Assembly: GCA_017416345.1 (NCBI GenBank)
Contig: JAFQCR010000010.1
Span: 1-46,666, forward strand
Source of the DNA: Clostridia bacterium
GTDB lineage: Bacteria; Bacillota; Clostridia; Oscillospirales; Acutalibacteraceae
Direction of reading: 5' to 3'
Length of the DNA stretch: 46,666 nucleotides
A program made the position numbers and the translations under genes. Within the stretch, counting starts at the first letter, position 1. Each line of letters starts with the position of its first letter. The notes under the pieces are model-generated. The model worked only from the letters and a program-made list of their open reading frames with translations. It made no database searches and had not been told where the DNA came from. This document shows positions 1 to 46,666 of the stretch, one piece after another.

Positions 1-1011
1 GTGACCAAGATCGAAAGCCGTGACGAGTACAAGGTCACCGTTTCGGGCAAGAAGATATACATCAACGGCGGCTCACATCAGGCCACCACCATTGCCGTTT
101 CGGAGCTTGCCAAAAAGCTCGGTAGTACAACAGCTCTGACCGATGCCGACAGCTTTGAGGGATCGTATTCGGCAACCGTTGCTTCTTATGACACGAGCAC
201 CTACTACACTCCGAAATTCTGGGATGATTTTGATGATATTACGGGGGAAAATGTCAACGCCAACGGCCTTGACACCAATAAGTGGAAGCTGACCACCGAG
301 GGTTCAACCGGTAAAAACGGTTATAAAGCCACCCGTTCAACCGACCCTTCAAGGGTTTTTGTTGCCGACGGCTTGTTCCAGATCCACCCCTATTTCGACT
401 ATGATACCAACACATACTACGGTGGCTTCCTCCGTTCGCAGAATCAGATGGATTTCACCTATGGATATATTGAATATAGCGCAAGAATCCCTGATGGCCC
501 CGGTTTCTGGACGGCTTTGTGGCTCCGTTCCAGTGACCATTCAGGCTCTTCGCGTCCCGAAATCGATATAGCTGAATGCTTTGGCAACTCAAAGTCTTTT
601 GCTTTTAATCTTCACACCTGGCCGGGCGAGGAGGCCGAGCAGTATGGCGTTACCCACACCTCACTTGACGGCGGAAAATACCCCGATAAGAAAAAGACCT
701 GCCCCGACGGCAAGAGATTCAACGATGATTTCCACACCTTTGGAATGCTCTGGACTCCCGAGGTTGCATGGGCAACCTGCGATGGCGTGCCCTATTTCAA
801 ATACACGATGGGTGACAAGGAGACCGATTCCTGGTGCTTTGGCAAATTGATGAACATCTGCATTTCAATGGCGGTTGGCTTTGAAAGCTGTGAGGGTGAT
901 CCTCTGACCGCAAGTCAGGAGGTTTGGGAGAATAACGCAGTTTATCTTGTTGATTGGGTTTATGTTTATCAGCTTGATGATAATATTCAGAGAATGGTAT
1001 TCTATAAATAA
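1..1011 (+). CDS. GH16 family endo-beta-glucanase, 5' end missing
   Basis: This is the C-terminal 336 residues of a glycoside hydrolase family 16 protein, probably a secreted endo-beta-1,3(4)-glucanase. The catalytic motif is RPEIDIAECFGN, the ExDxxE form with nucleophile E187, D189 and acid/base E192, in the beta-bulge class of laminarinases and related enzymes. The catalytic domain spans about residues 70 to 336 and ends in the usual VDWVYVYQ strand. Residues 1 to 45 are the end of an N-terminal domain (KIESRDEYKVTVSGKK) shared with the complete paralogue at 5311..7068. By alignment with that paralogue about 246 residues, including a lipoprotein signal, lie beyond the window edge, so the GTG at base 1 is not a start. 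The stop is TAA at 1009..1011. The substrate is inferred from the family. Confidence 0.93.
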   Translation: MTKIESRDEYKVTVSGKKIYINGGSHQATTIAVSELAKKLGSTTALTDADSFEGSYSATVASYDTSTYYTPKFWDDFDDITGENVNANGLDTNKWKLTTEGSTGKNGYKATRSTDPSRVFVADGLFQIHPYFDYDTNTYYGGFLRSQNQMDFTYGYIEYSARIPDGPGFWTALWLRSSDHSGSSRPEIDIAECFGNSKSFAFNLHTWPGEEAEQYGVTHTSLDGGKYPDKKKTCPDGKRFNDDFHTFGMLWTPEVAWATCDGVPYFKYTMGDKETDSWCFGKLMNICISMAVGFESCEGDPLTASQEVWENNAVYLVDWVYVYQLDDNIQRMVFYK

Positions 1012-1023
1012 GAGGCGCTTATT

Positions 1024-1098
1024 ATGGCTTCAACGGTAAACGGAATTGCTATCAACGTGTTTCACATTGTCAGAAAGCATTATAATTGGTGTCTTTAG
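1024..1098 (+). pseudogene. 24-codon remnant of a second GH16-type gene
   Basis: This short frame starts with ATG after a good Shine-Dalgarno GAGG (1012..1015) and ends at TAG. Its first 21 residues align without gaps to the first 21 of the GH16 protein at 4066..5280, with the same VRKH(Y/F)N ending and identities at M, N, I, F, V, R, K, H and N. Similarity stops abruptly after that. It also occupies the same place, directly after a GH16 gene, as the intact gene does in the other cluster. I read it as the 5' stump of a lost tandem GH16 gene. It could still be translated as a 24-residue peptide, but nothing suggests a function. Confidence 0.6.
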
Positions 1099-1108
1099 AC
1101 GTGGAAAT

Positions 1109-1142
1109 AAACCCCCGGTCGAACCGGGGGTTTTGCTTTTTT
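1109..1142 (+). terminator. Rho-independent terminator after the first GH16 gene
   Basis: The stem ACCCCCGGT (1111..1119) pairs with ACCGGGGGT (1123..1131) around a CGA loop, with flanking A:T pairs. TTTT and then TTTTTT follow, interrupted by GC. It ends the GH16 transcript and insulates it from the regulator operon downstream. Confidence 0.9.
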
Positions 1143-1171
1143 GCTGTTGCGAAAAAAATTTGAAAATACTC

Positions 1172-1200
1172 TTGACAAACTGTTCTACATATTGTAGAAT
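1172..1200 (+). promoter_or_regulatory. Sigma-A promoter of the blaI-blaR1-type operon
   Basis: TTGACA (1172..1177), a 17-base spacer and TAGAAT (1195..1200) make a near-consensus promoter. The spacer and -10 box lie inside the first dyad operator, so repressor binding would block RNA polymerase directly. Confidence 0.88.
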
Positions 1201-1224
1201 ACAATTGTACTACACGATGTAGAA
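1183..1224 (+). promoter_or_regulatory. Two BlaI/MecI-type dyad operators
   Basis: The first dyad, TTCTACA-TAT-TGTAGAA (1183..1199), is perfect. The second, TACTACA-CGA-TGTAGAA (1208..1224), differs at one pair. Their centres are 25 bases apart, on the -10 region and just after the expected start of transcription. The TACA...TGTA core is the one known for BlaI/MecI operators. The site lies immediately before a BlaI-family gene, so autorepression is the natural reading. Confidence 0.88.
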
Positions 1225-1245
1225 TAAATTTCGGGAGGAAAATAT

Positions 1246-1611
1246 ATGAGTGAGATGCAGATGGGCGCTATCGAGACCCGCTTTGCCGAGATCATCTGGC
1301 AAAATGAGCCGTTGCCGTCGGCCGAGCTGGCACGGCTTGCCGAAAAGGAGCTTCAATGGAAGAAGACCACATCATATACCGTTTTAAAACGCCTTTGCGA
1401 CAAGGGGATTTTCCAAAATGTTAAAGGCACCGTGACCTCGCTTATTTCCCGTGAGGAATTTTTCTCAATGCAGAGCGAAAAGTTTGTCGACGAAACGTTT
1501 TCGGGCTCGTTGCCGGCGTTTCTGGCGGCCTTCACGGCACGCAAAAGCCTCACCCCCGAGGAGGTAAAGGAGCTTCGGAAAATGGTGGCCGAATATGAGG
1601 AGGACGAGTAA
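1246..1611 (+). CDS. BlaI/MecI/CopY family transcriptional repressor
   Basis: A 121-residue winged-helix repressor of the usual length for the family. Residues 1 to 75 hold the DNA-binding fold (FAEIIWQNEPLPSAELA, then TTSYTVLKRLCDKGIF). Residues 80 to 121 form the helical dimerisation tail, where family members are cleaved on induction. The ATG follows GGGAGG (1233..1238) at 7 bases. Its stop TAA overlaps the ATG of the sensor gene (TAATG), so the two are translationally coupled. Two TACA/TGTA dyads sit on its promoter, indicating autoregulation. No beta-lactamase or penicillin-binding protein gene is in the window. The inducing signal and any targets beyond its own operon are unknown; the flanking GH16 genes are only neighbours. 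Confidence 0.93.
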   Translation: MSEMQMGAIETRFAEIIWQNEPLPSAELARLAEKELQWKKTTSYTVLKRLCDKGIFQNVKGTVTSLISREEFFSMQSEKFVDETFSGSLPAFLAAFTARKSLTPEEVKELRKMVAEYEEDE

Positions 1612-4010
1612 TGGAGGCTGTTTTTCTCAAAGTCCTTAATATGAGCATTACCGCAGGCTGGCTTGCTTTGGCGGTCATTTTGGTGCGGTTTGTATTCAAA
1701 AAAGCACCCAAGGCGTTGACGGTAGCTTTGTGGGGCTTGGTTGGTCTGCGGCTTTTGGTGCCGTGGTCGTTTGAAAGCATTTTCAGCCTCATCCCCAGCG
1801 CCGAAACCGTGCCGCAAAGCATCACAACGACCGACACGCCGCAGATAAACAGCGGAGTTGACATCTTCAATTCGACGGTCAATCCCGTCATCTCGGACGG
1901 TCTTGCGCCTAACCCCGGCGACTCGGTCAATCCGATGCAGGTGGTCGTTTTTGTGGCAACTGTCGTGTGGCTTGTGGGCGTTGCCGCAATGCTTATCTAC
2001 ACCGCCATAAGCTTTCTGAAGATCCGCCGCAGGGTAGGGGAGGCGGTTCATTTTAAAGACAACGTCTACCTCTGCGACCGTGTGGACACCCCGTTTATTT
2101 TAGGGGTCATCCGACCTAAAATATACCTGCCGAGCAGTATAAGTAAGGCCGATACAGAGTATGTTTTAGCACACGAAACGGCACATCTCAAAAGGCACGA
2201 CCACCTTATAAAGCCGCTGTCGTTTTTACTGCTTTCGGTCTACTGGTTCAATCCGCTTTTGTGGGTGGCATACGTGCTTTTGTGCCGTGATATCGAGCTT
2301 GCCTGCGACGAAAAGGTCATAAAGCAGATGGGGCTTGACGTCAAAAAGCCGTACTCCACGGCGCTGATAAACTGCAGTATAAAAAGGCGAAGCATTGCAG
2401 CCTGCCCGCTGGCCTTCGGTGAGGTCGGAGTTAAGTCGAGAATAAAGGCGGTGCTAAACTACAAGCGACCTGCCTTTTGGGTCATCGTCACTTGTGTTCT
2501 TCTGTCCTGCGTACTTGGTGTCTGCTTTTTGACCGATCCCAAGACGGTCAGATTGAAAAGCATCGAGCATCTGAACCTTGACCGCACAATAGAAAACACG
2601 GTCAACGTGTACGTCGGCCGTGGGGGCACGTATTCTCCTGCTTTGAGTACGTATTTGCCGGCACCGGAGACAGATACCTCGATCTTAAGCAAGATCGCCG
2701 ACCTCAAGGTGTCGGCTAAGCCGGTATCCCAAAGCCGAAGCGAGGACAGGGACGCCCAAAATGTTATTGTCCTGCAAAGAAAGTCCGATATAAAGAGCAT
2801 TTCATCAAGGATCGAGGGCTTTTATATCTGCTTCAGCTCCGAGTTTTCAGAGGTCTGGATAAACGACGGCGTCAAGCCGACCTTCAGCTATAAGGTCTTT
2901 GACCCCGAAAAGGCACAAAAGCTGTTTATGGACATCAAAACCGTTGAGGATGAACGGTTTGATAAGCTTTCCGCTTTACGTGAAAAATTCCCCGAATATT
3001 TTGACCTGCCGACCGACAAGGGGCTTGAGGTATACATCTGGCAGATGTCAAGCTCCAACTACCAATGCGGACTTATGGCAGGCACCAATTTTAATAAGAC
3101 CGATGAGCAAAAGCAGGGCTTAAAGCCTGCCACCATTCAGGAAATGCGGCTGATACTTTCGACCTATTCGCTGCCGACCAACGATATGTTCCTTATCGCT
3201 TACAAACACCCGCTGTCGAGCTACAGCTACGAAATAAACGACGAATATTACGTTGAACTGCACGAAATCTTCTGGCACGATGACACGCTTTCGAGCTTCG
3301 GCGGTGCCGACGACCCTGAAAGCATCACCAAGATCAGCACGGCGGTCTACGGCTTTCTGTCGTCTCCCGACCCCGTGCGACCCACCTTGCGCTTGACATC
3401 GGGACTGCAGATATTCAATTTCAGCTGGTCGGGCTACAGCAGCTATATTGCAGTGGGAAATTACAAGCTGCAGGACGGAAGGCTGACGCTTTCGACCTCC
3501 GACGGACTTAACACCTACGTTTTTGAAGCGGTGGGCGACCGATATAAGTTTTTGGCAAACGAATCGTCACCCATTCCGAAATACAAATACAGCCAAAACG
3601 GTGCCGAGCAAAGCCCCGTACCCGACGGTGCAATGTTTGAGCCGATCGTTGGCGAATCGACGGGATTCGAGTTTCCTTGCTACGATTCGATAGATTTTGA
3701 TGTTGACGGGGATGGGTTAAAGGAAAAATGCACCCTTACCCCCGGGCCGACATCCGGAGTTTACACCGTTATGTTAAGGGCGGTTTCGGCCAAAAGTGAA
3801 TATTCCCGCATCTTTATGCCGGGTAACTTCAGCGACGATATTACGTTTGCGGTCGTGGGCGGAAAGCTGACGGTGCATTGCATAGAGCCCAATGGAAACA
3901 GTCCGATAATGTACGAGGTCTCGGTCAAGGACGGCCGCCTGCATTTGATCTTCGACAACGGTCAGCAGGTGGTGCCCTATTGGGGCGATCCGTACTACCC
4001 TACAGAATAA
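1611..4010 (+). CDS. BlaR1/MecR1-type M56 sensor metalloprotease
   Basis: A 799-residue membrane protein. The zinc protease motif is HETAH at residues 188 to 192 within LAHETAHLKRHDHL, with a downstream ACDEKV segment, as in peptidase family M56. Membrane segments lie near residues 14-29, 36-52, 110-135, 205-225 and 289-308. The remaining roughly 490 residues are extracellular. I see no penicillin-binding SxxK-type sensor domain as in classical BlaR1. Instead the region 320-690 is uncharacterised, with a beta-rich part around 600-680, and DVDGDG at 697-702 resembles a calcium-binding loop. By family knowledge it senses a cell-wall or extracellular ligand and triggers cleavage of the partner repressor. 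Calcium binding and the ligand are inference. The gene is coupled to the repressor by TAATG and ends at a terminator. Confidence 0.9.
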   Translation: MEAVFLKVLNMSITAGWLALAVILVRFVFKKAPKALTVALWGLVGLRLLVPWSFESIFSLIPSAETVPQSITTTDTPQINSGVDIFNSTVNPVISDGLAPNPGDSVNPMQVVVFVATVVWLVGVAAMLIYTAISFLKIRRRVGEAVHFKDNVYLCDRVDTPFILGVIRPKIYLPSSISKADTEYVLAHETAHLKRHDHLIKPLSFLLLSVYWFNPLLWVAYVLLCRDIELACDEKVIKQMGLDVKKPYSTALINCSIKRRSIAACPLAFGEVGVKSRIKAVLNYKRPAFWVIVTCVLLSCVLGVCFLTDPKTVRLKSIEHLNLDRTIENTVNVYVGRGGTYSPALSTYLPAPETDTSILSKIADLKVSAKPVSQSRSEDRDAQNVIVLQRKSDIKSISSRIEGFYICFSSEFSEVWINDGVKPTFSYKVFDPEKAQKLFMDIKTVEDERFDKLSALREKFPEYFDLPTDKGLEVYIWQMSSSNYQCGLMAGTNFNKTDEQKQGLKPATIQEMRLILSTYSLPTNDMFLIAYKHPLSSYSYEINDEYYVELHEIFWHDDTLSSFGGADDPESITKISTAVYGFLSSPDPVRPTLRLTSGLQIFNFSWSGYSSYIAVGNYKLQDGRLTLSTSDGLNTYVFEAVGDRYKFLANESSPIPKYKYSQNGAEQSPVPDGAMFEPIVGESTGFEFPCYDSIDFDVDGDGLKEKCTLTPGPTSGVYTVMLRAVSAKSEYSRIFMPGNFSDDITFAVVGGKLTVHCIEPNGNSPIMYEVSVKDGRLHLIFDNGQQVVPYWGDPYYPTE

Positions 4011-4013
4011 CAA

Positions 4014-4050
4014 AAAAGCTTCTCCGACTTTAATGTCGAAGAAGCTTTTT
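4014..4050. terminator. Bidirectional terminator between convergent genes
   Basis: The stem GCTTCTCCGAC pairs with GTCGAAGAAGC with one mismatch around the loop TTTAAT. An A-run lies on the left and a T-run on the right, so it works for both the sensor gene (plus) and the GH16 gene ending at 4066 (minus). Confidence 0.88.
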
Positions 4051-4065
4051 GTTTATACTTTGATC

Positions 4066-5280
4066 TTATTCCATAAACTCGATGACCTGCTGTCCGTCCT
4101 TTATCTGATACAGATAGCACCAGTCAACATAGTAGGAGCTGTTGTTTGCCCATTGCTCGGGGGTGTTGTTGATGGGGTCTCCCGACTTGTTGAAACCGAC
4201 CGCCTCGGAAATAACGATCCAGACCTTTTTGCCGAAGCATTCAAAGTCGGTCTCCTTGTCACCCATATTGTACTTGAAATAGGGCACACCGTCGCAGGTG
4301 AACCACGCAATGTCGTGCGTCCACAGAACACCGTAGGTGTGGAAATCCTCGCTGAAGCGCTTGTCGTCGGGGCACCAATGAAGTCGCTCAAAGTAATCCT
4401 GACGGTTGAGCTGGGTGTGGGTAATTCCGTATTGCTCGGCCTCCTCACCCGGCCAGGTGTGGAGGTTGGCATTGACGCCTGCGCCGTTGCCAAAGCACTC
4501 GTTTACGTCGATCTCGGGACGTACACGACCGCTTCGGTCGTTACAGCGAAGCCACAGCGAAGTCCAGTAACCCGGGCCGTCGGGTATCTTGGCGCTTATC
4601 TCAACAAAGCCGTAGGTGAACTTCATCCTGCCGTTGGACTCTAAAAAACCTCCGTAGTACACGTTGTTTTCCTTGTCGTGGTAGGGGTGCACCTGGAACA
4701 TCGAGTCCTTTACGTAAACACGGTTGGGGTCGGTGGTGCGGTCACAACGTGCGCCGTTGTGACCCTCAGAGCTCCATGCGGAGTGTCCGTCTCCGCCTCT
4801 TAAATTCCACTTTCTTGTGTCGATGCCGTTGGGGCTGACAAAGTCACCCTCAATATCGTCAAACTCGTCAAAGAAAACGGGCTTGTAATAGGTTTCATCA
4901 TCATAGTTTTTTGCGGTTTCGGCATAAGAGCCCACAAAGCTGTCGGCATCGGTGAGGTTCTCTTTTTCCTTTAAAATTCTTCTGAACTCGGAGACAGCCA
5001 TGGTAACGGCAGGCGAGCTTCCGCCGTTCAAGTATACCTTTTGGCCTTCAATACGGACCTCAAAGGCATCACGGTCATCAAATTTCTTAACGCCGTCACG
5101 TTCACAGTCACCCACGATTATCTCATACTCACGGGGTTTGTTGACGGTGTCCTCCAAAATACGCATTCCGCAGTTTTTGGCAACGGTCAGAACCGCATCA
5201 TAGGTCATATAAGACATATTGAAATGCTTTCTTACGAACGCAAACTGTCTTATACCTCTATCGTTTATAGAAAGTGGCAT
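4066..5280 (-). CDS. GH16 family glycoside hydrolase without signal peptide
   Basis: A 404-residue GH16 protein. Residues 1 to about 115 form one copy of an N-terminal domain (YEIIVGDCERDGV, then GQKVYLNGGSSPAVTMAVSEF), and the catalytic domain covers about 135 to 404. The motif RPEIDVNECFGN gives E256, D258 and E261, so the active site is complete. GYWTSLWLRC matches the conserved aromatic strand. Unlike its upstream partner it has no signal peptide or membrane segment, so it is either cytoplasmic or exported by another route. The start ATG has GAGGAGG about 7 bases upstream. It lies 30 bases after the GH16 lipoprotein gene, so the two should be co-transcribed. It may act on shorter glucans, but that is inference. 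Confidence 0.92.
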   Translation of the reverse strand: MPLSINDRGIRQFAFVRKHFNMSYMTYDAVLTVAKNCGMRILEDTVNKPREYEIIVGDCERDGVKKFDDRDAFEVRIEGQKVYLNGGSSPAVTMAVSEFRRILKEKENLTDADSFVGSYAETAKNYDDETYYKPVFFDEFDDIEGDFVSPNGIDTRKWNLRGGDGHSAWSSEGHNGARCDRTTDPNRVYVKDSMFQVHPYHDKENNVYYGGFLESNGRMKFTYGFVEISAKIPDGPGYWTSLWLRCNDRSGRVRPEIDVNECFGNGAGVNANLHTWPGEEAEQYGITHTQLNRQDYFERLHWCPDDKRFSEDFHTYGVLWTHDIAWFTCDGVPYFKYNMGDKETDFECFGKKVWIVISEAVGFNKSGDPINNTPEQWANNSSYYVDWCYLYQIKDGQQVIEFME

Positions 5281-5310
5281 TGTTATTCCTCCTCGAAGAA
5301 CGGTGACCGT

Positions 5311-7068
5311 TTACTGAAGTTCACCGTTGATGGTCATCACTTGGTTGCCATCGTCGATCTGATAAACGTATACCCAGTCAACGTAGTATCTTCCCTTGGT
5401 GTTCCAAACCTCTTCGCTCAAGGTCAAGGGATTACCGCTTTGGCTCTCAAATCCGACAGCCATCGAGATACAGATCCTCATAAGTCGGCTGAAGCACCAT
5501 TCATCGGTCGGCTTGTCACCCATTTTGTACTTGAAGTAGGGTACACCGTCACAGGTGGCATAAACGACCTCGGGTGTCCACAGCATTCCGTAGGTGTGGA
5601 AGGTGTCGTTAAAGCGGCCGTCGCCGGGGCAAACCTTCTTCTTTTCGGGGTATCTACCGCCGTCAAGCGAGGAGTGCTTAACATCTTCAGAGCCGGGGCC
5701 TTTACCGGGCCAGGTGTGCATATTAAAGGCAAAGGATTTCGAGTTTCCGAAGCACTCGGCAATATCGACCTCGGGACGGGAGGAGCCGGTATAGTCGTCG
5801 CAACGAAGCCAGAATGCCGTCCAGAAGCCTGCGCCGTCGGGTATCTTGGCGCTGTACTCAAGATAGCCGTAGGTAAAGCGCATCAGCTTGCCGGTCTCAA
5901 GGAAGCCGCCGTAGAATTCCATTTTATCGTGGTCGACGTAAGGGTAAATGTGGAACATACCGTCGGCAACAAAAATGTGCTCGGGGTCGGTGGCTCTCTT
6001 GGCCTTGTAGCCGCCGTGACCGGCCGTAGAGCTGGTGGTCAGCTTCCACTTGGTAGTATCAAGACCGTTGGCGTTGACGTGGTCACCCGTAATATCGTCA
6101 AAATCATCCCAGAATCTGGGGGTGTAATAGGTGGCGGTGTCGTAGGATGCAACGGTCTGGGAATAATAGCCCTCAAAGCTGTCGGCATCGGTCAGAGCAG
6201 ATGAGCTTCCCAGCTTTTTGGTAAGCTCCGAAACGGCAATGGTGGTAGCCTGGTGCGAGCCGCCGTTGATGTAGATCTTCTTGCCCGAAACGGTGACCTT
6301 ATATTCGTCACGGCTTTCGATCTTGGCTACGTTGGGTCGCTGACAGTCACCGACAATGATCTCATACTCGGCCTCATCGGTTTCGGTATCGTCAACGATC
6401 TTGGGCTTGAAGCCGGATTTCTGATAAAGGGTCTCGATCATCTTTTCGATCTCGGCATAGGTGAGGTAGGACGAGTTGAAATGCGGACGGACGATCGAGA
6501 ACTTGCCGATGGTCACTCCGTTGACGGTGACGTCGGAAAAGTCGCCTGCGGCAGTGTAAACATACTTGATACCTGCGCTTTGAGGAGCTGCAAGGAAGTT
6601 TTTGATAAAGTAGTTGACTGCCTCGTTAAAAGCATCGTCCGAGTTACCGTAAATAACGATCTTTTTGCCGATGGTGCAGACTATATAGTCGTCATAACGG
6701 CCGCCCTTGTTTTCCAAAAGCCAGTTTTTGGCCTGCTCTGTTTCGGGACGGTTGGTGTTGCCGAGCAGTATCTCGTAAGCATCGGTGCCGTCCTCGGCGT
6801 CGGTCGTATTTTTAATGGTGGCATGCAGGTCACGGTACTGCTTAAACAAAAGTGAAGCCGCCGCAGTTTCGGCATCGGTGCCTTTTTCGGGACGGATAAT
6901 GCGGTAGACCGCCATTCCGTTGGCAACGTAATTGACGGCCTCGGTCGAGAAAATGTCGCCCTTGTCGGCAGAGCCGCCCGAAGCGGTGCCGTCATTCGAG
7001 TCGCCGCCGCAACCGACAAACAGCGAAACGATCAAAGCAATGCAAAGAATGAATGAAAGTTTTTTCAA
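5311..7068 (-). CDS. GH16 family lipoprotein, endo-beta-glucanase, with duplicated N-terminal domain
   Basis: A 585-residue secreted lipoprotein. I choose the TTG at 7068 because AAAGGAG (7077..7083) sits 8 bases before it and the product then begins MKKLSFILCIALIVSLFVGC, a classic signal with a lipid-anchoring Cys; an ATG 21 bases upstream would place that ribosome site inside the gene. After a Gly/Ser/Asp linker come two related domains, about 35-165 (YEILLGNTNRP, then GKKIVIYGNS) and 170-285 (YEIIVGDCQRP, then GKKIYINGGS). These resemble domains preceding catalytic modules in other glycosidases. The GH16 domain covers about 305-585, with RPEVDIAECFGN giving E433, D435 and E438. It probably cleaves beta-1,3 or mixed-linkage glucans at the cell surface. 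It is transcribed divergently from the rhamnosidase gene. Confidence 0.92.
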   Translation of the reverse strand: MKKLSFILCIALIVSLFVGCGGDSNDGTASGGSADKGDIFSTEAVNYVANGMAVYRIIRPEKGTDAETAAASLLFKQYRDLHATIKNTTDAEDGTDAYEILLGNTNRPETEQAKNWLLENKGGRYDDYIVCTIGKKIVIYGNSDDAFNEAVNYFIKNFLAAPQSAGIKYVYTAAGDFSDVTVNGVTIGKFSIVRPHFNSSYLTYAEIEKMIETLYQKSGFKPKIVDDTETDEAEYEIIVGDCQRPNVAKIESRDEYKVTVSGKKIYINGGSHQATTIAVSELTKKLGSSSALTDADSFEGYYSQTVASYDTATYYTPRFWDDFDDITGDHVNANGLDTTKWKLTTSSTAGHGGYKAKRATDPEHIFVADGMFHIYPYVDHDKMEFYGGFLETGKLMRFTYGYLEYSAKIPDGAGFWTAFWLRCDDYTGSSRPEVDIAECFGNSKSFAFNMHTWPGKGPGSEDVKHSSLDGGRYPEKKKVCPGDGRFNDTFHTYGMLWTPEVVYATCDGVPYFKYKMGDKPTDEWCFSRLMRICISMAVGFESQSGNPLTLSEEVWNTKGRYYVDWVYVYQIDDGNQVMTINGELQ

Positions 7069-7076
7069 GATAATGT

Positions 7077-7083
7077 CTCCTTT
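7077..7083 (-). promoter_or_regulatory. Ribosome binding site that fixes the TTG start of the GH16 lipoprotein
   Basis: AAAGGAG on the minus strand lies 8 bases from TTG at 7068..7066. It overlaps codons 3 to 5 of the longer ATG-started frame, which argues against that longer start. Confidence 0.8.
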
Positions 7084-7117
7084 CGGCATGGTGAGTTTTT
7101 TACAACTTTACACATCC

Positions 7118-7146
7118 ATTATATACACAAAAAATCGCAAAGTAAA
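7118..7146 (-). promoter_or_regulatory. Promoter of the GH16 lipoprotein operon
   Basis: On the minus strand TTTACT (7146..7141) and TATAAT (7123..7118) are separated by 17 bases. The -10 is consensus and the -35 is weak, which fits an activated promoter. The leader to the TTG start is about 40 bases. Confidence 0.82.
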
Positions 7147-9111: not shown

Positions 9112-9459
9112 ATGGCAAACAAGATCAGAATTACCGTTGGCGGTATCGACTACATCATCGCATCCGAGGACGAGGAGACCTATGTCCGCAAAATAGGCGA
9201 TGAGCTGAATATGAAGCTGGACACGTTGGCTCGCAATAACCCCTATCTTTCAACCGCAATGGTGGCCATCCTTGCGGCGCTGGAGTATTGTGACAACGCC
9301 AAGAAGGCAAACGCCGCATCAGAAGAGGCCAAGGCCGAGTTCAAGCGTGTTTCGGAGGAGCTTGCGTGTGCAAGAATGGAGATCGACGGTGCACGCCGTG
9401 AGATCGAGCGCTTGAACCGTGAAAACCGTCAGTTAAGACTTGATAAAAGCGCATTATGA
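9112..9459 (+). CDS. zapA: Cell division protein ZapA
   Basis: A 115-residue ZapA-like protein, which bundles FtsZ filaments at the division site. The N-terminal part MANKIRITVGGIDYIIAS and the segment EETYVRKIGDELNMKLD match the ZapA globular domain, followed by STAMVAILAALEYCD and a C-terminal coiled coil (about 65-110) rich in Glu, Arg and Leu. The ATG at 9112 is preferred to a TTG at 9100 because GAGG (9102..9105) lies 6 bases before it. The stop TGA overlaps the ATG of the next gene (ATGA), so the two are translationally coupled. A TAAAAT box (9056..9061) with only a poor -35 is the likely promoter. Confidence 0.85.
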   Translation: MANKIRITVGGIDYIIASEDEETYVRKIGDELNMKLDTLARNNPYLSTAMVAILAALEYCDNAKKANAASEEAKAEFKRVSEELACARMEIDGARREIERLNRENRQLRLDKSAL

Positions 9460-11522
9460 TCGAGGTCTTAGCCCCTGCGGGAAGCCTCGAAAGCTTTGAG
9501 GCCGCCGTGCGTTCGGGTGCCGATGCCGTGTATTTCGGCTGGGGCGATTTTAACGCACGCCGCAACGCAAAAAATTTCACAACCGAAGATATGCGGTACG
9601 CCGCAAAGACTGCAAGGGTCAGAGGAGTTAAGACTTATCTGACCCTTAACACACTTACAGCCGACAGCGAACTGTCGGCTGCTCTTTGTGCTGCAAAATT
9701 GGCCGCCGAGGTCGGCATCGATGCACTTATCGTGCAGGATATCGGCCTTATCCGACTGATAAAAAAACATCTGCCCAATATGCCGATACACGCCTCCACC
9801 CAGATGTCGGTGCATTCGGCCGAAGCCTTGGCACCGCTTAAGGAAATGGGCTTTGAGCGTGTGGTCGTGGCACGTGAGATGGATAAAAAATCGCTTTTCG
9901 AGCTTTGCCGGGAGGCCAAAAGATTAGGGCTTGAGGTCGAGGCCTTTGTTCACGGCGCATTGTGTATGTGCCTGTCGGGTCAATGCTACTTAAGCAGTGT
10001 TTTGGGCGGACGAAGCGGCAACCGTGGGCTTTGTGCCCAGCCCTGCCGTCTTGCTTTTTCGGTCAAAAACGGCACGGGACACGATTTAAGCCTTAAGGAT
10101 ATGAGCTACATTTCCCATATTGCCGAAATGGCTGAGATGGGTGTGACCTCGTTTAAGATAGAGGGTCGTATGAAGCGTCCCGAGTATGTTGCGGCGGCTG
10201 TGTCGGCGGTTAGAGCGGCGGCCGACGGATGTACCGTAGCGCCCGAGACCGAGGAGCTTTTGTCGGGGATCTTCTCACGAAGCGGCCATACCGACGGGTA
10301 TTATAACAACAAATTAGGTCGGGATATGTTTGGCATCCGCACCGATTCGGATGCGCAGATGTCGGCCAAAATGATAAACCGGGCGCACGAAATTTACCGC
10401 CGTGAGTACCAAAGAGTGCCGCTTTTAGGCTCTGTTTCGGTCAAAAACGGCAGGGAACTGTCGCTGACCGTCCGTGACCGTGACGGCAATTCGGTGACCG
10501 TCTCGGGAAGCGTGCCTCAAATCGCCCTAAACCGCCCTGCCGATGGGGAGTATATTTCCTCAAAGCTCAACAAAACGGGCGGAACACCCTATTATTTTGA
10601 AAGAATTGACTGTGATATCGAGGACGGATTGGCGGTAGCCGCCTCGGAGCTGTCCGAGCTGCGCCGTGTTGCCTTTGACCGTCTGACCGAAAAGAGGGCT
10701 TATTACGGCGGTGAGAGGGCGGCTGACAACACCGTCGATCAATATATTTCGGCACGGACCACCCCCACCGCAAGACCCATAAAAACGGTGGCGCAATTCC
10801 GTGATATAGGGCAGATACCCGATGACCTTTCGGGAGTTTCGGCGGTGATCCTGCCTGCCGAGGCCGACTTTTCCAAGGTCAATCTGCCCGAAGGTATCGA
10901 CATTATTGCAGACATTCCAAGAGGAATACTTCACTCGGCCGACCGGGTGCTTGAACAACTGAAAGCGGCCAAACAAAACGGCGTGAAGGCCGCTGTTTGC
11001 GGCAATCTTGCCGCCTTTACGCTGGCCGAAAGGGCAGGTCTTACCCCCGTGGCAGGCTTTGGAATGAACATTTTTAACTCCGAAAGCGTTGCGGCGGCAG
11101 GGGATATGGGTGCCAAAGCGGCAGTATTGTCGTTTGAATTGTCGGCAACCGATATTTTCCGTTTAAACGGAAAGATACCCATGGGAATCATAACCTACGG
11201 AAGGCTTCCGCTGATGCTTTTTTGCAACTGCCCCGGCAAAAACGGTGACGGCTGTGCCAAATGCGGCAGACGGTGTGAGCTGACCGACCGCAAGGGCGTG
11301 ACCTTCCCCGTGATGTGCCGCGGTGAGTTTTCAGAAATGCTCAATTCCCGTCCTATATGGATGTTTGACCGAAAAGCTGAGCTTAAAAATCTCGATTTCG
11401 AGGTGCTTTATTTCACCGACGAGTCAAAGGAGCGTTGCGGTCAGGTGCTTGCCGCCTGCAAAAACAAGGCGTCCGCCGATGTCGAGTTTACACGTGGTCT
11501 GTATTACCGAGAGGTACTATAA
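9456..11522 (+). CDS. Peptidase U32 family protein, RlhA-like (23S rRNA hydroxylation type)
   Basis: A 688-residue U32 family protein. It opens with MIEVLAPAGSLESFEAAVRSGADAVYFG, the start of the TIM-barrel-like U32 domain. The family signature covers residues about 163-198 (EAFVHGALCMCLSGQCY, then NRGLCAQPCR), with C170, C172, C177, C193 and C197, some of which should bind an iron-sulfur cluster as in RlhA and TrhP. A long C-terminal part (about 290-688) includes a second Cys-rich stretch, CNCPGKNGDGCAKCGRRC. Long U32 proteins of this plan are related to E. coli RlhA, which hydroxylates C2501 of 23S rRNA; the original collagenase label is doubtful. It overlaps zapA by four bases. The exact RNA target is inference. 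Confidence 0.87.
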   Translation: MIEVLAPAGSLESFEAAVRSGADAVYFGWGDFNARRNAKNFTTEDMRYAAKTARVRGVKTYLTLNTLTADSELSAALCAAKLAAEVGIDALIVQDIGLIRLIKKHLPNMPIHASTQMSVHSAEALAPLKEMGFERVVVAREMDKKSLFELCREAKRLGLEVEAFVHGALCMCLSGQCYLSSVLGGRSGNRGLCAQPCRLAFSVKNGTGHDLSLKDMSYISHIAEMAEMGVTSFKIEGRMKRPEYVAAAVSAVRAAADGCTVAPETEELLSGIFSRSGHTDGYYNNKLGRDMFGIRTDSDAQMSAKMINRAHEIYRREYQRVPLLGSVSVKNGRELSLTVRDRDGNSVTVSGSVPQIALNRPADGEYISSKLNKTGGTPYYFERIDCDIEDGLAVAASELSELRRVAFDRLTEKRAYYGGERAADNTVDQYISARTTPTARPIKTVAQFRDIGQIPDDLSGVSAVILPAEADFSKVNLPEGIDIIADIPRGILHSADRVLEQLKAAKQNGVKAAVCGNLAAFTLAERAGLTPVAGFGMNIFNSESVAAAGDMGAKAAVLSFELSATDIFRLNGKIPMGIITYGRLPLMLFCNCPGKNGDGCAKCGRRCELTDRKGVTFPVMCRGEFSEMLNSRPIWMFDRKAELKNLDFEVLYFTDESKERCGQVLAACKNKASADVEFTRGLYYREVL

Positions 11523-21129: not shown

Positions 21130-23307
21130 ATGAGCTTTGTTGTTGATGAGCGGTATTGGAAAGAGATAGCCGACTTCCTGGCCGTTTCAAAAGGCCCTAT
21201 AGTGCTGCACATTTCGGACACGGCAACCCGGCAGTATCCGTTTTTGCAGAAGCTTTTGGCGGCGGTGAAACCCGACCGCATCATCCACACGGGTGACTGC
21301 GCCGATGAGTATAAGGTCGGCCGTCTTGAAACCGACCGCAAGGGTTATGAGGCAGGGCTTCGAGAGCTTATGAGGATATTGAAAACGGCCGAATGTCCCA
21401 TCACCTTCACCCACGGCAACAACGATGACCTTGTGCTTTTAGAGGGCGAGGAAAACGTTGAGGTCTTGCAGAATTACACCGCTTTGGAGCTGTTTGGAAT
21501 AAAGCTTCTTATCGACCATTATCCGTTTGTGGGTGCAGGCGATGTTGACTTTGCTCTTTACGGTCACAGCGCAAGGTTTGACCCACACTATCCGCCCAAC
21601 GACACGGGTGTTGCCCCCGTTTACCTTAACGGCAACTTTTTCTGGACAGTCATAGATTGTGCCACCAAGCATTACTTAAGCATCCCCGTCATTGAACCAT
21701 TGGTTTTTGACGACAAGATCGAGACCGACGAAAACGGCAATAGAATTATCGTAAGAACCGAAAATGACCGTCAATGGAAGCTTCCGCCCAAGGAGCGTTG
21801 GTTTCTCACACAGATGCATCTGCACGCAGGCGTTGAGGATTTTTCAAGCGTGCGCTCACACGCCAAGGTTGCCAAGGAGCTTGGCTACGACGTAATTTTC
21901 ATAACCGAGCACGACAACCGTATGAACCGTGTTCCCAATTGTATTGAGGCTTTTAGTCTGACCGCCGAGGGTGACTCCGTGCGAGCTGACGGTATGGCAG
22001 GCTGGTACCGTGACGACGGTACACCTGCTTTGAGTGTGGCAAACGGCGACGGCTATTCACTTTGCTTGAAAAGGAAAGAAAATGCCACCTTCAAAAGCGT
22101 TGGCAAAAAGCATCAGGTATCGCTTTTTGCCGATGTTACCGTAACGCTTAAAATGTCGGCGCCCAAAAATGCCGATATTCTGGTCGATCTCACCCTTTCA
22201 CAGCGCCCCGAGGACCTCGAGCAGCAGCACCTTTACTACGGCATCGGTGAAGCCACGCACGAAGGCTGGTTCAAGTCGGTCGAGCGTGCCGAGGATGGGG
22301 TGTATGCCTTTAAGATCTCGGACGACGTGCTGTGCTTTGATCCCGATTTCGGGCACGATAACGCCCTGCTTTACATCACGGTGACCGCTGTTTCGGACGA
22401 TATTCTGGTCAATAGCATTGAATTTGACCGTAAGTATGTTGCCGAGGATGTAAGAAAGCGTCAAAAGACCTTGAGCAAGGTTATAGGCTCTAAGTACAAA
22501 ATCGTCATTAACTCGGGCTTTGAGATGTCGTTCGGTCATCATCAGAACTGCTTTTCGGCCTTTGTCCCGGTTGTTGATTACGGCAAAACAGGTTACGTGA
22601 AATCGGACGAAACAGGTGCAAAATATCTGCAGTCACGTGGAGCTACCTTCTCGTATAACCATATGTTCAGCGAGCTGAAGAAAACACCGCCCGAGGAGCA
22701 CGAGGCCGCCATCCAAAAGGTGATCGGACTTGGACTTGAGACCCGTTTCGGCGGTGCACAGCTTATCGAGGTCGGCTTCCCAATGGGTCGCTACGGCTTC
22801 TCTATCGAGGAGCATATGCGAGTTTGGGACGAGCTTGCCATCCGTGGCTTAAAGCTGGTCGGCTACGGCGACAGCGACAGTCACAATTCCAAGGTCGGCT
22901 GGCTTGACGGAAACAATTTCGGAAGCTGGATACTGTCCCGTGACCGCACGCAGGAGACCCTTGAGAGAGCTATGCGTAAGGGCAAGATATGCTTCGGAGA
23001 CCCCGTCAGATGGAAATCCACGTGGGATTTTGCCATCGGTGATGCCACTATCGGTGACACATTGACTTGTGACGGTAAGGCTTTGGGGCGCATAAAGCTC
23101 AATAAACTGACCGAACCCGTGGTGGTTAAGATCATCCGAGCAGGCGAGGTTTTGGAGCAACACACCGTCACCGCCGCATCCTTCGAAAGGGTGTTTGCGG
23201 TGGACAGAGGTGAGCTTCACTGCTGTCCCGTCCGTGTTGAGGTATGGTCGAATGAGGCCGAGCCCAAGCCATTGTTCTTCACCAACCCGATATACATGGA
23301 AAAATAA
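21130..23307 (+). CDS. Fusion of a calcineurin-like metallophosphoesterase and a PHP phosphoesterase domain
   Basis: A 725-residue cytosolic protein with two hydrolase modules. Residues 22-185 resemble YfcE/MJ0936-type metallophosphoesterases: D30 in HISDTA, GDC at 55-57, GNND at 96-99, H130 and GHS at 145-147. The usual His of the first DxH motif is Ala32 here and the His of GNHD is Asn98, so metal binding may be altered. From about 222 a PHP domain starts with QMHLHAG (H230, H232) and ITEHDN (258-263), continues with GFEMSFGHH (E465, H470, H471) and NH at 510-511, and ends with GDSDSH (580-585). A beta-rich insert of about 190 residues lies inside the PHP domain. The substrate is unknown; a phosphoester of a sugar or nucleotide is a guess. 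Confidence 0.85.
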   Translation: MSFVVDERYWKEIADFLAVSKGPIVLHISDTATRQYPFLQKLLAAVKPDRIIHTGDCADEYKVGRLETDRKGYEAGLRELMRILKTAECPITFTHGNNDDLVLLEGEENVEVLQNYTALELFGIKLLIDHYPFVGAGDVDFALYGHSARFDPHYPPNDTGVAPVYLNGNFFWTVIDCATKHYLSIPVIEPLVFDDKIETDENGNRIIVRTENDRQWKLPPKERWFLTQMHLHAGVEDFSSVRSHAKVAKELGYDVIFITEHDNRMNRVPNCIEAFSLTAEGDSVRADGMAGWYRDDGTPALSVANGDGYSLCLKRKENATFKSVGKKHQVSLFADVTVTLKMSAPKNADILVDLTLSQRPEDLEQQHLYYGIGEATHEGWFKSVERAEDGVYAFKISDDVLCFDPDFGHDNALLYITVTAVSDDILVNSIEFDRKYVAEDVRKRQKTLSKVIGSKYKIVINSGFEMSFGHHQNCFSAFVPVVDYGKTGYVKSDETGAKYLQSRGATFSYNHMFSELKKTPPEEHEAAIQKVIGLGLETRFGGAQLIEVGFPMGRYGFSIEEHMRVWDELAIRGLKLVGYGDSDSHNSKVGWLDGNNFGSWILSRDRTQETLERAMRKGKICFGDPVRWKSTWDFAIGDATIGDTLTCDGKALGRIKLNKLTEPVVVKIIRAGEVLEQHTVTAASFERVFAVDRGELHCCPVRVEVWSNEAEPKPLFFTNPIYMEK

Positions 23308-23312
23308 GCTAC

Positions 23313-23354
23313 AAAAAAGTCGATGAACGGAGCGCTCCGTTCATCGACTTTTTT
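23313..23354. terminator. Terminator hairpin at the exact centre of the palindrome
   Basis: Six A, then GTCGATGAACGGAGC (23319..23333), then its exact complement and six T. It lies 5 bases after the stop of the 725-residue protein and has all marks of a rho-independent terminator with a minimal GCGC loop. The left half is surely genuine. Whether the right half is native sequence or already mirrored copy cannot be told from the window. Confidence 0.88.
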
Positions 23355-23359
23355 GTAGC

Positions 23360-25537
23360 TTATTTTTCCATGTATATCGGGTTGGTGAAGAACAATGGCT
23401 TGGGCTCGGCCTCATTCGACCATACCTCAACACGGACGGGACAGCAGTGAAGCTCACCTCTGTCCACCGCAAACACCCTTTCGAAGGATGCGGCGGTGAC
23501 GGTGTGTTGCTCCAAAACCTCGCCTGCTCGGATGATCTTAACCACCACGGGTTCGGTCAGTTTATTGAGCTTTATGCGCCCCAAAGCCTTACCGTCACAA
23601 GTCAATGTGTCACCGATAGTGGCATCACCGATGGCAAAATCCCACGTGGATTTCCATCTGACGGGGTCTCCGAAGCATATCTTGCCCTTACGCATAGCTC
23701 TCTCAAGGGTCTCCTGCGTGCGGTCACGGGACAGTATCCAGCTTCCGAAATTGTTTCCGTCAAGCCAGCCGACCTTGGAATTGTGACTGTCGCTGTCGCC
23801 GTAGCCGACCAGCTTTAAGCCACGGATGGCAAGCTCGTCCCAAACTCGCATATGCTCCTCGATAGAGAAGCCGTAGCGACCCATTGGGAAGCCGACCTCG
23901 ATAAGCTGTGCACCGCCGAAACGGGTCTCAAGTCCAAGTCCGATCACCTTTTGGATGGCGGCCTCGTGCTCCTCGGGCGGTGTTTTCTTCAGCTCGCTGA
24001 ACATATGGTTATACGAGAAGGTAGCTCCACGTGACTGCAGATATTTTGCACCTGTTTCGTCCGATTTCACGTAACCTGTTTTGCCGTAATCAACAACCGG
24101 GACAAAGGCCGAAAAGCAGTTCTGATGATGACCGAACGACATCTCAAAGCCCGAGTTAATGACGATTTTGTACTTAGAGCCTATAACCTTGCTCAAGGTC
24201 TTTTGACGCTTTCTTACATCCTCGGCAACATACTTACGGTCAAATTCAATGCTATTGACCAGAATATCGTCCGAAACAGCGGTCACCGTGATGTAAAGCA
24301 GGGCGTTATCGTGCCCGAAATCGGGATCAAAGCACAGCACGTCGTCCGAGATCTTAAAGGCATACACCCCATCCTCGGCACGCTCGACCGACTTGAACCA
24401 GCCTTCGTGCGTGGCTTCACCGATGCCGTAGTAAAGGTGCTGCTGCTCGAGGTCCTCGGGGCGCTGTGAAAGGGTGAGATCGACCAGAATATCGGCATTT
24501 TTGGGCGCCGACATTTTAAGCGTTACGGTAACATCGGCAAAAAGCGATACCTGATGCTTTTTGCCAACGCTTTTGAAGGTGGCATTTTCTTTCCTTTTCA
24601 AGCAAAGTGAATAGCCGTCGCCGTTTGCCACACTCAAAGCAGGTGTACCGTCGTCACGGTACCAGCCTGCCATACCGTCAGCTCGCACGGAGTCACCCTC
24701 GGCGGTCAGACTAAAAGCCTCAATACAATTGGGAACACGGTTCATACGGTTGTCGTGCTCGGTTATGAAAATTACGTCGTAGCCAAGCTCCTTGGCAACC
24801 TTGGCGTGTGAGCGCACGCTTGAAAAATCCTCAACGCCTGCGTGCAGATGCATCTGTGTGAGAAACCAACGCTCCTTGGGCGGAAGCTTCCATTGACGGT
24901 CATTTTCGGTTCTTACGATAATTCTATTGCCGTTTTCGTCGGTCTCGATCTTGTCGTCAAAAACCAATGGTTCAATGACGGGGATGCTTAAGTAATGCTT
25001 GGTGGCACAATCTATGACTGTCCAGAAAAAGTTGCCGTTAAGGTAAACGGGGGCAACACCCGTGTCGTTGGGCGGATAGTGTGGGTCAAACCTTGCGCTG
25101 TGACCGTAAAGAGCAAAGTCAACATCGCCTGCACCCACAAACGGATAATGGTCGATAAGAAGCTTTATTCCAAACAGCTCCAAAGCGGTGTAATTCTGCA
25201 AGACCTCAACGTTTTCCTCGCCCTCTAAAAGCACAAGGTCATCGTTGTTGCCGTGGGTGAAGGTGATGGGACATTCGGCCGTTTTCAATATCCTCATAAG
25301 CTCTCGAAGCCCTGCCTCATAACCCTTGCGGTCGGTTTCAAGACGGCCGACCTTATACTCATCGGCGCAGTCACCCGTGTGGATGATGCGGTCGGGTTTC
25401 ACCGCCGCCAAAAGCTTCTGCAAAAACGGATACTGCCGGGTTGCCGTGTCCGAAATGTGCAGCACTATAGGGCCTTTTGAAACGGCCAGGAAGTCGGCTA
25501 TCTCTTTCCAATACCGCTCATCAACAACAAAGCTCAT
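23360..25537 (-). CDS. Metallophosphoesterase-PHP fusion protein (mirror copy)
   Basis: Exact reverse-complement copy of 21130..23307: 725 residues, an altered metallophosphoesterase module followed by a PHP domain with a large insert. In this window the two copies face each other across the central hairpin. Confidence 0.83.
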   Translation of the reverse strand: MSFVVDERYWKEIADFLAVSKGPIVLHISDTATRQYPFLQKLLAAVKPDRIIHTGDCADEYKVGRLETDRKGYEAGLRELMRILKTAECPITFTHGNNDDLVLLEGEENVEVLQNYTALELFGIKLLIDHYPFVGAGDVDFALYGHSARFDPHYPPNDTGVAPVYLNGNFFWTVIDCATKHYLSIPVIEPLVFDDKIETDENGNRIIVRTENDRQWKLPPKERWFLTQMHLHAGVEDFSSVRSHAKVAKELGYDVIFITEHDNRMNRVPNCIEAFSLTAEGDSVRADGMAGWYRDDGTPALSVANGDGYSLCLKRKENATFKSVGKKHQVSLFADVTVTLKMSAPKNADILVDLTLSQRPEDLEQQHLYYGIGEATHEGWFKSVERAEDGVYAFKISDDVLCFDPDFGHDNALLYITVTAVSDDILVNSIEFDRKYVAEDVRKRQKTLSKVIGSKYKIVINSGFEMSFGHHQNCFSAFVPVVDYGKTGYVKSDETGAKYLQSRGATFSYNHMFSELKKTPPEEHEAAIQKVIGLGLETRFGGAQLIEVGFPMGRYGFSIEEHMRVWDELAIRGLKLVGYGDSDSHNSKVGWLDGNNFGSWILSRDRTQETLERAMRKGKICFGDPVRWKSTWDFAIGDATIGDTLTCDGKALGRIKLNKLTEPVVVKIIRAGEVLEQHTVTAASFERVFAVDRGELHCCPVRVEVWSNEAEPKPLFFTNPIYMEK

Positions 25538-39549: not shown

Positions 39550-39598
39550 GGATGTGTAAAGTTGTAAAAAACTCACCATGCCGAAAGGAGACATTATC

Positions 39599-41356: not shown

Positions 41357-41386
41357 ACGGTCACCGTTCTTCGAGGAGGAATAACA

Positions 41387-42601
41387 ATGCCACTTTCTAT
41401 AAACGATAGAGGTATAAGACAGTTTGCGTTCGTAAGAAAGCATTTCAATATGTCTTATATGACCTATGATGCGGTTCTGACCGTTGCCAAAAACTGCGGA
41501 ATGCGTATTTTGGAGGACACCGTCAACAAACCCCGTGAGTATGAGATAATCGTGGGTGACTGTGAACGTGACGGCGTTAAGAAATTTGATGACCGTGATG
41601 CCTTTGAGGTCCGTATTGAAGGCCAAAAGGTATACTTGAACGGCGGAAGCTCGCCTGCCGTTACCATGGCTGTCTCCGAGTTCAGAAGAATTTTAAAGGA
41701 AAAAGAGAACCTCACCGATGCCGACAGCTTTGTGGGCTCTTATGCCGAAACCGCAAAAAACTATGATGATGAAACCTATTACAAGCCCGTTTTCTTTGAC
41801 GAGTTTGACGATATTGAGGGTGACTTTGTCAGCCCCAACGGCATCGACACAAGAAAGTGGAATTTAAGAGGCGGAGACGGACACTCCGCATGGAGCTCTG
41901 AGGGTCACAACGGCGCACGTTGTGACCGCACCACCGACCCCAACCGTGTTTACGTAAAGGACTCGATGTTCCAGGTGCACCCCTACCACGACAAGGAAAA
42001 CAACGTGTACTACGGAGGTTTTTTAGAGTCCAACGGCAGGATGAAGTTCACCTACGGCTTTGTTGAGATAAGCGCCAAGATACCCGACGGCCCGGGTTAC
42101 TGGACTTCGCTGTGGCTTCGCTGTAACGACCGAAGCGGTCGTGTACGTCCCGAGATCGACGTAAACGAGTGCTTTGGCAACGGCGCAGGCGTCAATGCCA
42201 ACCTCCACACCTGGCCGGGTGAGGAGGCCGAGCAATACGGAATTACCCACACCCAGCTCAACCGTCAGGATTACTTTGAGCGACTTCATTGGTGCCCCGA
42301 CGACAAGCGCTTCAGCGAGGATTTCCACACCTACGGTGTTCTGTGGACGCACGACATTGCGTGGTTCACCTGCGACGGTGTGCCCTATTTCAAGTACAAT
42401 ATGGGTGACAAGGAGACCGACTTTGAATGCTTCGGCAAAAAGGTCTGGATCGTTATTTCCGAGGCGGTCGGTTTCAACAAGTCGGGAGACCCCATCAACA
42501 ACACCCCCGAGCAATGGGCAAACAACAGCTCCTACTATGTTGACTGGTGCTATCTGTATCAGATAAAGGACGGACAGCAGGTCATCGAGTTTATGGAATA
42601 A
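41387..42601 (+). CDS. GH16 family glycoside hydrolase without signal peptide (mirror copy)
   Basis: Exact copy of 4066..5280: 404 residues with an intact ExDxxE motif and no export signal. Confidence 0.9.
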   Translation: MPLSINDRGIRQFAFVRKHFNMSYMTYDAVLTVAKNCGMRILEDTVNKPREYEIIVGDCERDGVKKFDDRDAFEVRIEGQKVYLNGGSSPAVTMAVSEFRRILKEKENLTDADSFVGSYAETAKNYDDETYYKPVFFDEFDDIEGDFVSPNGIDTRKWNLRGGDGHSAWSSEGHNGARCDRTTDPNRVYVKDSMFQVHPYHDKENNVYYGGFLESNGRMKFTYGFVEISAKIPDGPGYWTSLWLRCNDRSGRVRPEIDVNECFGNGAGVNANLHTWPGEEAEQYGITHTQLNRQDYFERLHWCPDDKRFSEDFHTYGVLWTHDIAWFTCDGVPYFKYNMGDKETDFECFGKKVWIVISEAVGFNKSGDPINNTPEQWANNSSYYVDWCYLYQIKDGQQVIEFME

Positions 42602-42616
42602 GATCAAAGTATAAAC

Positions 42617-42653
42617 AAAAAGCTTCTTCGACATTAAAGTCGGAGAAGCTTTT
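42617..42653. terminator. Bidirectional terminator (mirror copy)
   Basis: Mirror of 4014..4050, between the convergent GH16 and sensor protease genes. Confidence 0.86.
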
Positions 42654-42656
42654 TTG

Positions 42657-45056: not shown

Positions 45057-45421
45057 TACTCGTCCTCCTCATATTCGGCCACCATTTTCCGAAGCTCCTT
45101 TACCTCCTCGGGGGTGAGGCTTTTGCGTGCCGTGAAGGCCGCCAGAAACGCCGGCAACGAGCCCGAAAACGTTTCGTCGACAAACTTTTCGCTCTGCATT
45201 GAGAAAAATTCCTCACGGGAAATAAGCGAGGTCACGGTGCCTTTAACATTTTGGAAAATCCCCTTGTCGCAAAGGCGTTTTAAAACGGTATATGATGTGG
45301 TCTTCTTCCATTGAAGCTCCTTTTCGGCAAGCCGTGCCAGCTCGGCCGACGGCAACGGCTCATTTTGCCAGATGATCTCGGCAAAGCGGGTCTCGATAGC
45401 GCCCATCTGCATCTCACTCAT
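45056..45421 (-). CDS. BlaI/MecI/CopY family transcriptional repressor (mirror copy)
   Basis: Exact copy of 1246..1611: 121-residue winged-helix repressor, coupled to the sensor gene by TAATG. Confidence 0.92.
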   Translation of the reverse strand: MSEMQMGAIETRFAEIIWQNEPLPSAELARLAEKELQWKKTTSYTVLKRLCDKGIFQNVKGTVTSLISREEFFSMQSEKFVDETFSGSLPAFLAAFTARKSLTPEEVKELRKMVAEYEEDE

Positions 45422-45442
45422 ATATTTTCCTCCCGAAATTTA

Positions 45443-45495
45443 TTCTACATCGTGTAGTACAATTGTATTCTACAATATGTAGAACAGTTTGTCAA
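45443..45495 (-). promoter_or_regulatory. Promoter with two BlaI-type dyad operators (mirror copy)
   Basis: Mirror of 1172..1224: TTGACA-17-TAGAAT with dyads at 45468..45484 and 45443..45459. Confidence 0.86.
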
Positions 45496-45524
45496 GAGTA
45501 TTTTCAAATTTTTTTCGCAACAGC

Positions 45525-45558
45525 AAAAAAGCAAAACCCCCGGTTCGACCGGGGGTTT
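45525..45558 (-). terminator. Terminator after the terminal GH16 gene (mirror copy)
   Basis: Mirror of 1109..1142, GC-rich 9-base stem with CGA-type loop. Confidence 0.88.
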
Positions 45559-45568
45559 ATTTCCACGT

Positions 45569-45643
45569 CTAAAGACACCAATTATAATGCTTTCTGACAA
45601 TGTGAAACACGTTGATAGCAATTCCGTTTACCGTTGAAGCCAT
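45569..45643 (-). pseudogene. 24-codon remnant of a second GH16-type gene (mirror copy)
   Basis: Mirror of 1024..1098; its first 21 codons resemble the start of the 404-residue GH16 gene. Confidence 0.58.
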
Positions 45644-45655
45644 AATAAGCGCCTC

Positions 45656-46666
45656 TTATTTATAGAATACCATTCTCTGAATATTATCATCAAGCTGATA
45701 AACATAAACCCAATCAACAAGATAAACTGCGTTATTCTCCCAAACCTCCTGACTTGCGGTCAGAGGATCACCCTCACAGCTTTCAAAGCCAACCGCCATT
45801 GAAATGCAGATGTTCATCAATTTGCCAAAGCACCAGGAATCGGTCTCCTTGTCACCCATCGTGTATTTGAAATAGGGCACGCCATCGCAGGTTGCCCATG
45901 CAACCTCGGGAGTCCAGAGCATTCCAAAGGTGTGGAAATCATCGTTGAATCTCTTGCCGTCGGGGCAGGTCTTTTTCTTATCGGGGTATTTTCCGCCGTC
46001 AAGTGAGGTGTGGGTAACGCCATACTGCTCGGCCTCCTCGCCCGGCCAGGTGTGAAGATTAAAAGCAAAAGACTTTGAGTTGCCAAAGCATTCAGCTATA
46101 TCGATTTCGGGACGCGAAGAGCCTGAATGGTCACTGGAACGGAGCCACAAAGCCGTCCAGAAACCGGGGCCATCAGGGATTCTTGCGCTATATTCAATAT
46201 ATCCATAGGTGAAATCCATCTGATTCTGCGAACGGAGGAAGCCACCGTAGTATGTGTTGGTATCATAGTCGAAATAGGGGTGGATCTGGAACAAGCCGTC
46301 GGCAACAAAAACCCTTGAAGGGTCGGTTGAACGGGTGGCTTTATAACCGTTTTTACCGGTTGAACCCTCGGTGGTCAGCTTCCACTTATTGGTGTCAAGG
46401 CCGTTGGCGTTGACATTTTCCCCCGTAATATCATCAAAATCATCCCAGAATTTCGGAGTGTAGTAGGTGCTCGTGTCATAAGAAGCAACGGTTGCCGAAT
46501 ACGATCCCTCAAAGCTGTCGGCATCGGTCAGAGCTGTTGTACTACCGAGCTTTTTGGCAAGCTCCGAAACGGCAATGGTGGTGGCCTGATGTGAGCCGCC
46601 GTTGATGTATATCTTCTTGCCCGAAACGGTGACCTTGTACTCGTCACGGCTTTCGATCTTGGTCAC
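45656..46666 (-). CDS. GH16 family endo-beta-glucanase, 5' end missing (mirror copy)
   Basis: Exact copy of 1..1011: 336 C-terminal residues with catalytic E187, D189 and E192, cut by the window edge at the same codon as the left copy. Confidence 0.91.
   Translation of the reverse strand: MTKIESRDEYKVTVSGKKIYINGGSHQATTIAVSELAKKLGSTTALTDADSFEGSYSATVASYDTSTYYTPKFWDDFDDITGENVNANGLDTNKWKLTTEGSTGKNGYKATRSTDPSRVFVADGLFQIHPYFDYDTNTYYGGFLRSQNQMDFTYGYIEYSARIPDGPGFWTALWLRSSDHSGSSRPEIDIAECFGNSKSFAFNLHTWPGEEAEQYGVTHTSLDGGKYPDKKKTCPDGKRFNDDFHTFGMLWTPEVAWATCDGVPYFKYTMGDKETDSWCFGKLMNICISMAVGFESCEGDPLTASQEVWENNAVYLVDWVYVYQLDDNIQRMVFYK

Follow-up and report, generated by a model that had tools for sequence, protein, structure and literature searches.

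The window, by which we mean the whole stretch of 46,666 bases that was analysed, is the entire contig C8 (G000:C8:1-46666), one of 38 contigs in a draft genome of 2,469,392 bases (~2.47 Mb; completeness 96.32, contamination 0.79). Its first half (positions 1–23333, forward strand; hereafter the arm) is a real and probably single-copy chromosomal stretch, and the second half (23334–46666, reverse strand) is a 100% identical mirror of the arm that we take to be artefactual. The arm encodes GH16-family proteins, a BlaI/BlaR1-like pair, a rhamnosidase-like glycosidase, ZapA, a peptidase U32 protein, HtpG, citrate synthase, TrkA and TrkH-like proteins, SigK, an ECF-type sigma factor and a protein with a metallophosphoesterase domain. 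This last protein, of 725 aa, is the product of the final gene of the arm (21130–23307, forward strand; stop codon at 23305–23307), and the mirror copy of the gene occupies 23360–25537 on the reverse strand (23363–25537 when the stop codon is left off). The protein has a narrow spread, being near full-length in one of three congeners; a search of 150 genomes of the family recovered, besides the own genome, only four weak partial matches in other genomes, and no relative was found in a search of named genomes.

Several other genes of the arm deserve comment. A GH16 domain (PF00722) is found in three genes of the window (1–1011, 4066–5280 and 5311–7089), the first of which, on the forward strand, is the 3′ part of a gene that is cut by the contig end and has its 5′ part on a second contig, C18. 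A similar GH16 stretch lies further along that contig (G000:C18:4856-5739; 73% DNA identity), and a gene on a third contig, C32 (L011:885-1547, beside a gene for an MBL-fold protein), is GH16-like by the look of its translation only. This paralogue cluster may represent a local glycosidase expansion around the locus, with the C32 member counted by its look. The BlaI-like repressor and BlaR1-like M56 peptidase pair (1246–4010) sits beside the GH16 genes; no beta-lactamase occurs among the scanned genes of the arm, so the pair may control something else. The best NCBIfam match of the peptidase U32/DUF3656 protein (9456–11522) is TrhP, a tRNA uridine hydroxylase, at a score well below the cut-off. 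Judged by HtpG, the nearest of the named relatives in a list of 35 loci, a set from which near-identical records may be absent, is a yak-colon Clostridia MAG (84% identity), and the source genome is therefore probably a gut Clostridia; the SigK-type sporulation sigma factor and other arm genes are consistent with this assignment.

When the reverse complement of the window was compared with the window itself, all 46,666 positions agreed, with 0 mismatches and no N, so that the contig is its own reverse complement and the original prediction of a perfect palindrome of two 23,333-base arms is borne out. A chance origin of a 23-kb perfect inverted identity can be dismissed and needs no test, and the zero divergence between the arms rules out an old gene duplication or a repeat family. 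The axis falls between 23333 and 23334. It had been described as spacerless, which holds in that the symmetry is perfect, but the axis is not featureless, as it falls within the GCGC loop that a 42-bp palindrome would form. Likewise, the two outer ends do stop at the same base, as had been pointed out, but this is merely where contig C8 ends.

The 42-bp perfect palindrome at the axis (23313–23354) starts five bases past the stop codon of the last gene of the arm and is composed of six A and 15 further bases, followed by their mirror, which ends in six T. Its RNA is predicted to fold into one continuous hairpin (-27.5 kcal/mol; z -9.0), and none of 200 shuffles was as stable; the centre of the hairpin is the axis of the window. 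By its look, this element would be a bidirectional intrinsic terminator. The longest other even palindrome in the arm measures 18 bp; none of at least 20 bp is present, which rules out an alternative seed hairpin elsewhere in the arm.

When window positions 22834–23340 were used to query the own genome, the matches were the two C8 copies and one other place, the start of C32 (197,124 bases), which matched in reversed sense at 87% over 45 bases. The arm thus has a probable continuation elsewhere in the assembly. Window positions 23323–23354 (forward strand) are identical to the first 32 bases of C32; base 33 departs from the mirror, with A in C32 and G in the mirror, and from there onward C32 is unique. 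The first 22 of the shared bases (23323–23344) form a perfect palindrome by themselves, and when the arm and C32 are joined a 42-bp perfect palindrome stands at the junction. C32 therefore starts inside the hairpin where the window turns, bearing the other side of that hairpin. The first gene of C32 is convergent with the arm and has its stop codon at C32 bases 38–40; its product resembles an RNase Z-type MBL-fold protein at scores under the cut-offs of the curated models. Among the 76 contig ends, the start of C32 is the only one at which a contig begins with a perfect even palindrome (lengths of at least 8 bp tested), and its 22 bp equal 21+1. This single case suggests an event dating from a k=21 stage of assembly that was carried upward as a contig. 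The true chromosome order is very probably C18 (reversed), one arm, the hairpin and then C32.

Gene order in a congener agrees with this arrangement. A DNA search for the last gene of the arm was carried out in 40 genomes, including the own genome and three congeners (G001, G002 and G003). Long matches were obtained in two of the 40, namely the own genome and G002, and the gene was not matched in G001 and G003. The G002 orthologue is identical at 479 of 719 aligned positions (67% at the amino acid level), and G002 also holds an orthologue of the first gene of C32, with 173 of 257 residues identical (67%). In G002 the two are convergent neighbours separated by a 43-base gap, as the arm–C32 arrangement predicts; the gap contains a terminator-like hairpin (-19.8 kcal/mol; z -7.6) whose sequence is unlike that of the hairpin at the axis. 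Beyond the 725-aa gene, away from the gap, the genes of G002 are different, judging by the look of their translations, and the shared order comprises this pair only. As matches within the family are few, the support from gene order comes from one genome, G002, or one of the three congeners.

The outer ends of the window are informative about how the contig was made. Positions 1–141 (forward strand) equal C18:1-141 once the latter is reverse-complemented, and positions 46526–46666 (reverse strand) match the same C18 end over 141 identical bases, as expected of overlaps in an assembly graph. The frame of the cut GH16-family gene stays open across the overlap with C18, giving 608 codons without a stop. 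Among the 76 contig ends of this incomplete draft, that one C18 end is the sole overlap partner of both C8 ends and no unique outer junction at C8 was seen; the other end of C18 has no exact-141 relation, and a unique junction may exist further out. Since both C8 ends overlap the same C18 end, a real palindrome would need to run through C18. Relations of exactly 141 bases to another end are widespread in the draft (40 of 76 contig ends, leaving 36 without one), and consist of 5 pairs that overlap by 141 bases and 17 pairs that have their first 141 bases in common when read inwards. The 52 end-overlap pairs comprise 46 of 54–139 bases, which we interpret as short repeats that fell between contigs, the 5 of exactly 141, and the start of C32 with itself (22 bases). 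The fixed length of 141 looks like the mark of a short-read graph assembly whose final k was 141. We take 141 and 21 to be the last and the starting k in the default k list of MEGAHIT, and the records of relatives L105 and L106 are named in the style k141_..._flag=..._multi=..., presumably that of MEGAHIT contigs. In a separate case, the two ends of contig C1 (10,242 bases; loci L015 and L053), each read inwards, share their 141 bases, that is, a terminal inverted copy; C1 may be a segment that lies between the two copies of an inverted repeat.

We consider it highly likely that the window is a palindromic contig made from ordinary chromosome during short-read de Bruijn graph assembly, with no new genetic structure involved. 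The natural palindrome at the axis would be able to confuse a graph of small k: a (k+1)-mer that is its own reverse complement is present in the hairpin at each tested odd k up to 41, and absent at each tested k from 43 to 141. At odd k up to 41, these self-complementary (k+1)-mers of the 42-bp palindrome could join the arm to its own reverse strand. If the edge toward C32 were then lost or pruned, the sole path out of the hairpin would lead back along the arm, and following it would yield two identical 23,333-base arms. Both the type of assembler (MEGAHIT-like, run over multiple k with 141 as the last) and the way in which the true edge to C32 was lost are inferred.

This behaviour was reproduced in a toy graph, using our own unitig walk rather than an assembler run, on 3,189 bases made up of 2,000 bases of the arm, the hairpin and the start of C32. 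With k of 21, 29 and 39, a walk begun in the arm halts at the hairpin edge, and once the single edge between the hairpin and C32 is removed it comes back as a perfect palindrome, exactly double the length of the arm segment supplied. With k of 59, 79, 99, 119 and 141, the walk follows the true sequence unambiguously to its end. Once k reaches 59, reads from the true junction should thus either restore the path from the arm to C32 or break C8 at the branch. As C8 is unbroken, the k-mers of the junction would have been missing or pruned at the larger k, and low local coverage is the simplest guess as to why.

The artefact could instead have arisen in the library, if single strands formed fold-backs at the terminator hairpin while the library was being prepared or amplified and the assembler then followed the resulting chimeric reads. 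We regard this as improbable. Such an event would have the same hairpin as its seed and would account for a palindromic path that lasted to k=141, and palindromic reads are documented for multiple displacement amplification (MDA) with long-read sequencing in the available portion of PMC13265396. Against this, fold-back reads would have to exceed the reads of the true junction at this single site, and the self-complementary 22-bp start of C32 better suits an event at the level of the graph. The 141-base end relations moreover suggest short reads, and a long-read library fold-back in particular is not favoured, given how many contig ends (40 of 76) have an exact-141 relation. The original prediction had preferred an artefact to a real duplication, a preference upheld by the place where C32 starts, by the way the genes are ordered in the congener and by the exact 141-base end relations. 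Of the sources it had listed (assembly fold-back, MDA or long-read library preparation), assembly fold-back, here at the 42-bp terminator palindrome and most likely in the assembler, is the one preferred, and the long-read library is disfavoured by the 141-base relations.

One may also postulate that all cells, or a part of them, truly carry the chromosome arm as an inverted duplication, seeded by fold-back or template switching at the terminator palindrome. A very young event would be compatible with the perfect identity of the arms, this scenario too predicts a short natural palindrome at the axis, and palindromes in Escherichia coli are reported, in the part of PMC3315005 available, to participate in a reaction that gives rise to inverted duplications of the chromosome with the palindrome itself at the centre. 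We nonetheless give this scenario very little credence, because C32 starts inside the hairpin with the other side of it, the congener shows the arm–C32 order, and the overlap of both C8 ends with a single C18 end means that the palindrome would have to extend through C18. A mixed population would, moreover, be expected to make the graph fork at the hairpin, and C8 runs through it without a break. Its most far-reaching form, in which fold-back at the 42-bp palindrome gave some cells a giant inverted duplication whose centre is the terminator separating the metallophosphoesterase gene from the MBL-fold gene, and the assembly captured it, is likewise highly improbable. A mirrored axis would also result if a linear replicon ended here in a covalently closed hairpin telomere; we reject this reading in view of the ordinary chromosomal genes of the arm, the terminator-like nature of the hairpin and the presence of C32 beyond it.

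Returning to the graph-level artefact, we judge that the palindrome is not a real feature and that the window is ordinary as biology, and its relevance lies in how such drafts are used. It illustrates that a single perfect bidirectional terminator is enough to duplicate 23 kb, or ~0.9% of the 2.47-Mb draft, and sever the link between two contigs. Copy numbers of the arm genes taken from this genome are doubled; HtpG, for example, is present in two copies here, one per arm, versus one in G002, and was not found in the congeners G001 and G003. If each contig were compared with its reverse complement, cases of this kind would be caught ahead of claims of gene duplication. In practice, one arm should be disregarded and C18–arm–C32 taken as the probable order.

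Palindromic contigs and reads have been encountered before. No account of this MEGAHIT behaviour is among the literature titles listed, and the portions available of PMC11479545 and PMC10523443 have no bearing on it; we do not claim the mechanism as unpublished. MDA yields palindromic, or inverted chimeric, reads according to the available part of PMC13265396, and these resemble the window in being inverted self-copies of laboratory rather than cellular origin. They arise in long reads, whereas the exact 141-base end relations found here indicate a short-read graph. In assemblies of Mycobacterium bovis, palindromic contigs are ascribed to likely assembly error (PMC9455707, as far as the available text goes), and as in the window identical gene sets are duplicated and gene counts inflated; that study concerns another organism and data set, and in the same text the cause is left untraced. 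Palindromic contigs in cyanobacterial genomes are likewise handled as likely assembly artefacts in the portion available of PMC12755884. Those are single-cell genomes, and that portion names no seeding hairpin, whereas here both the hairpin and the probable lost continuation can be pointed to. The window is thus another case of a palindromic contig, and what it adds is the identification of a probable seed and of the neighbour that was severed.
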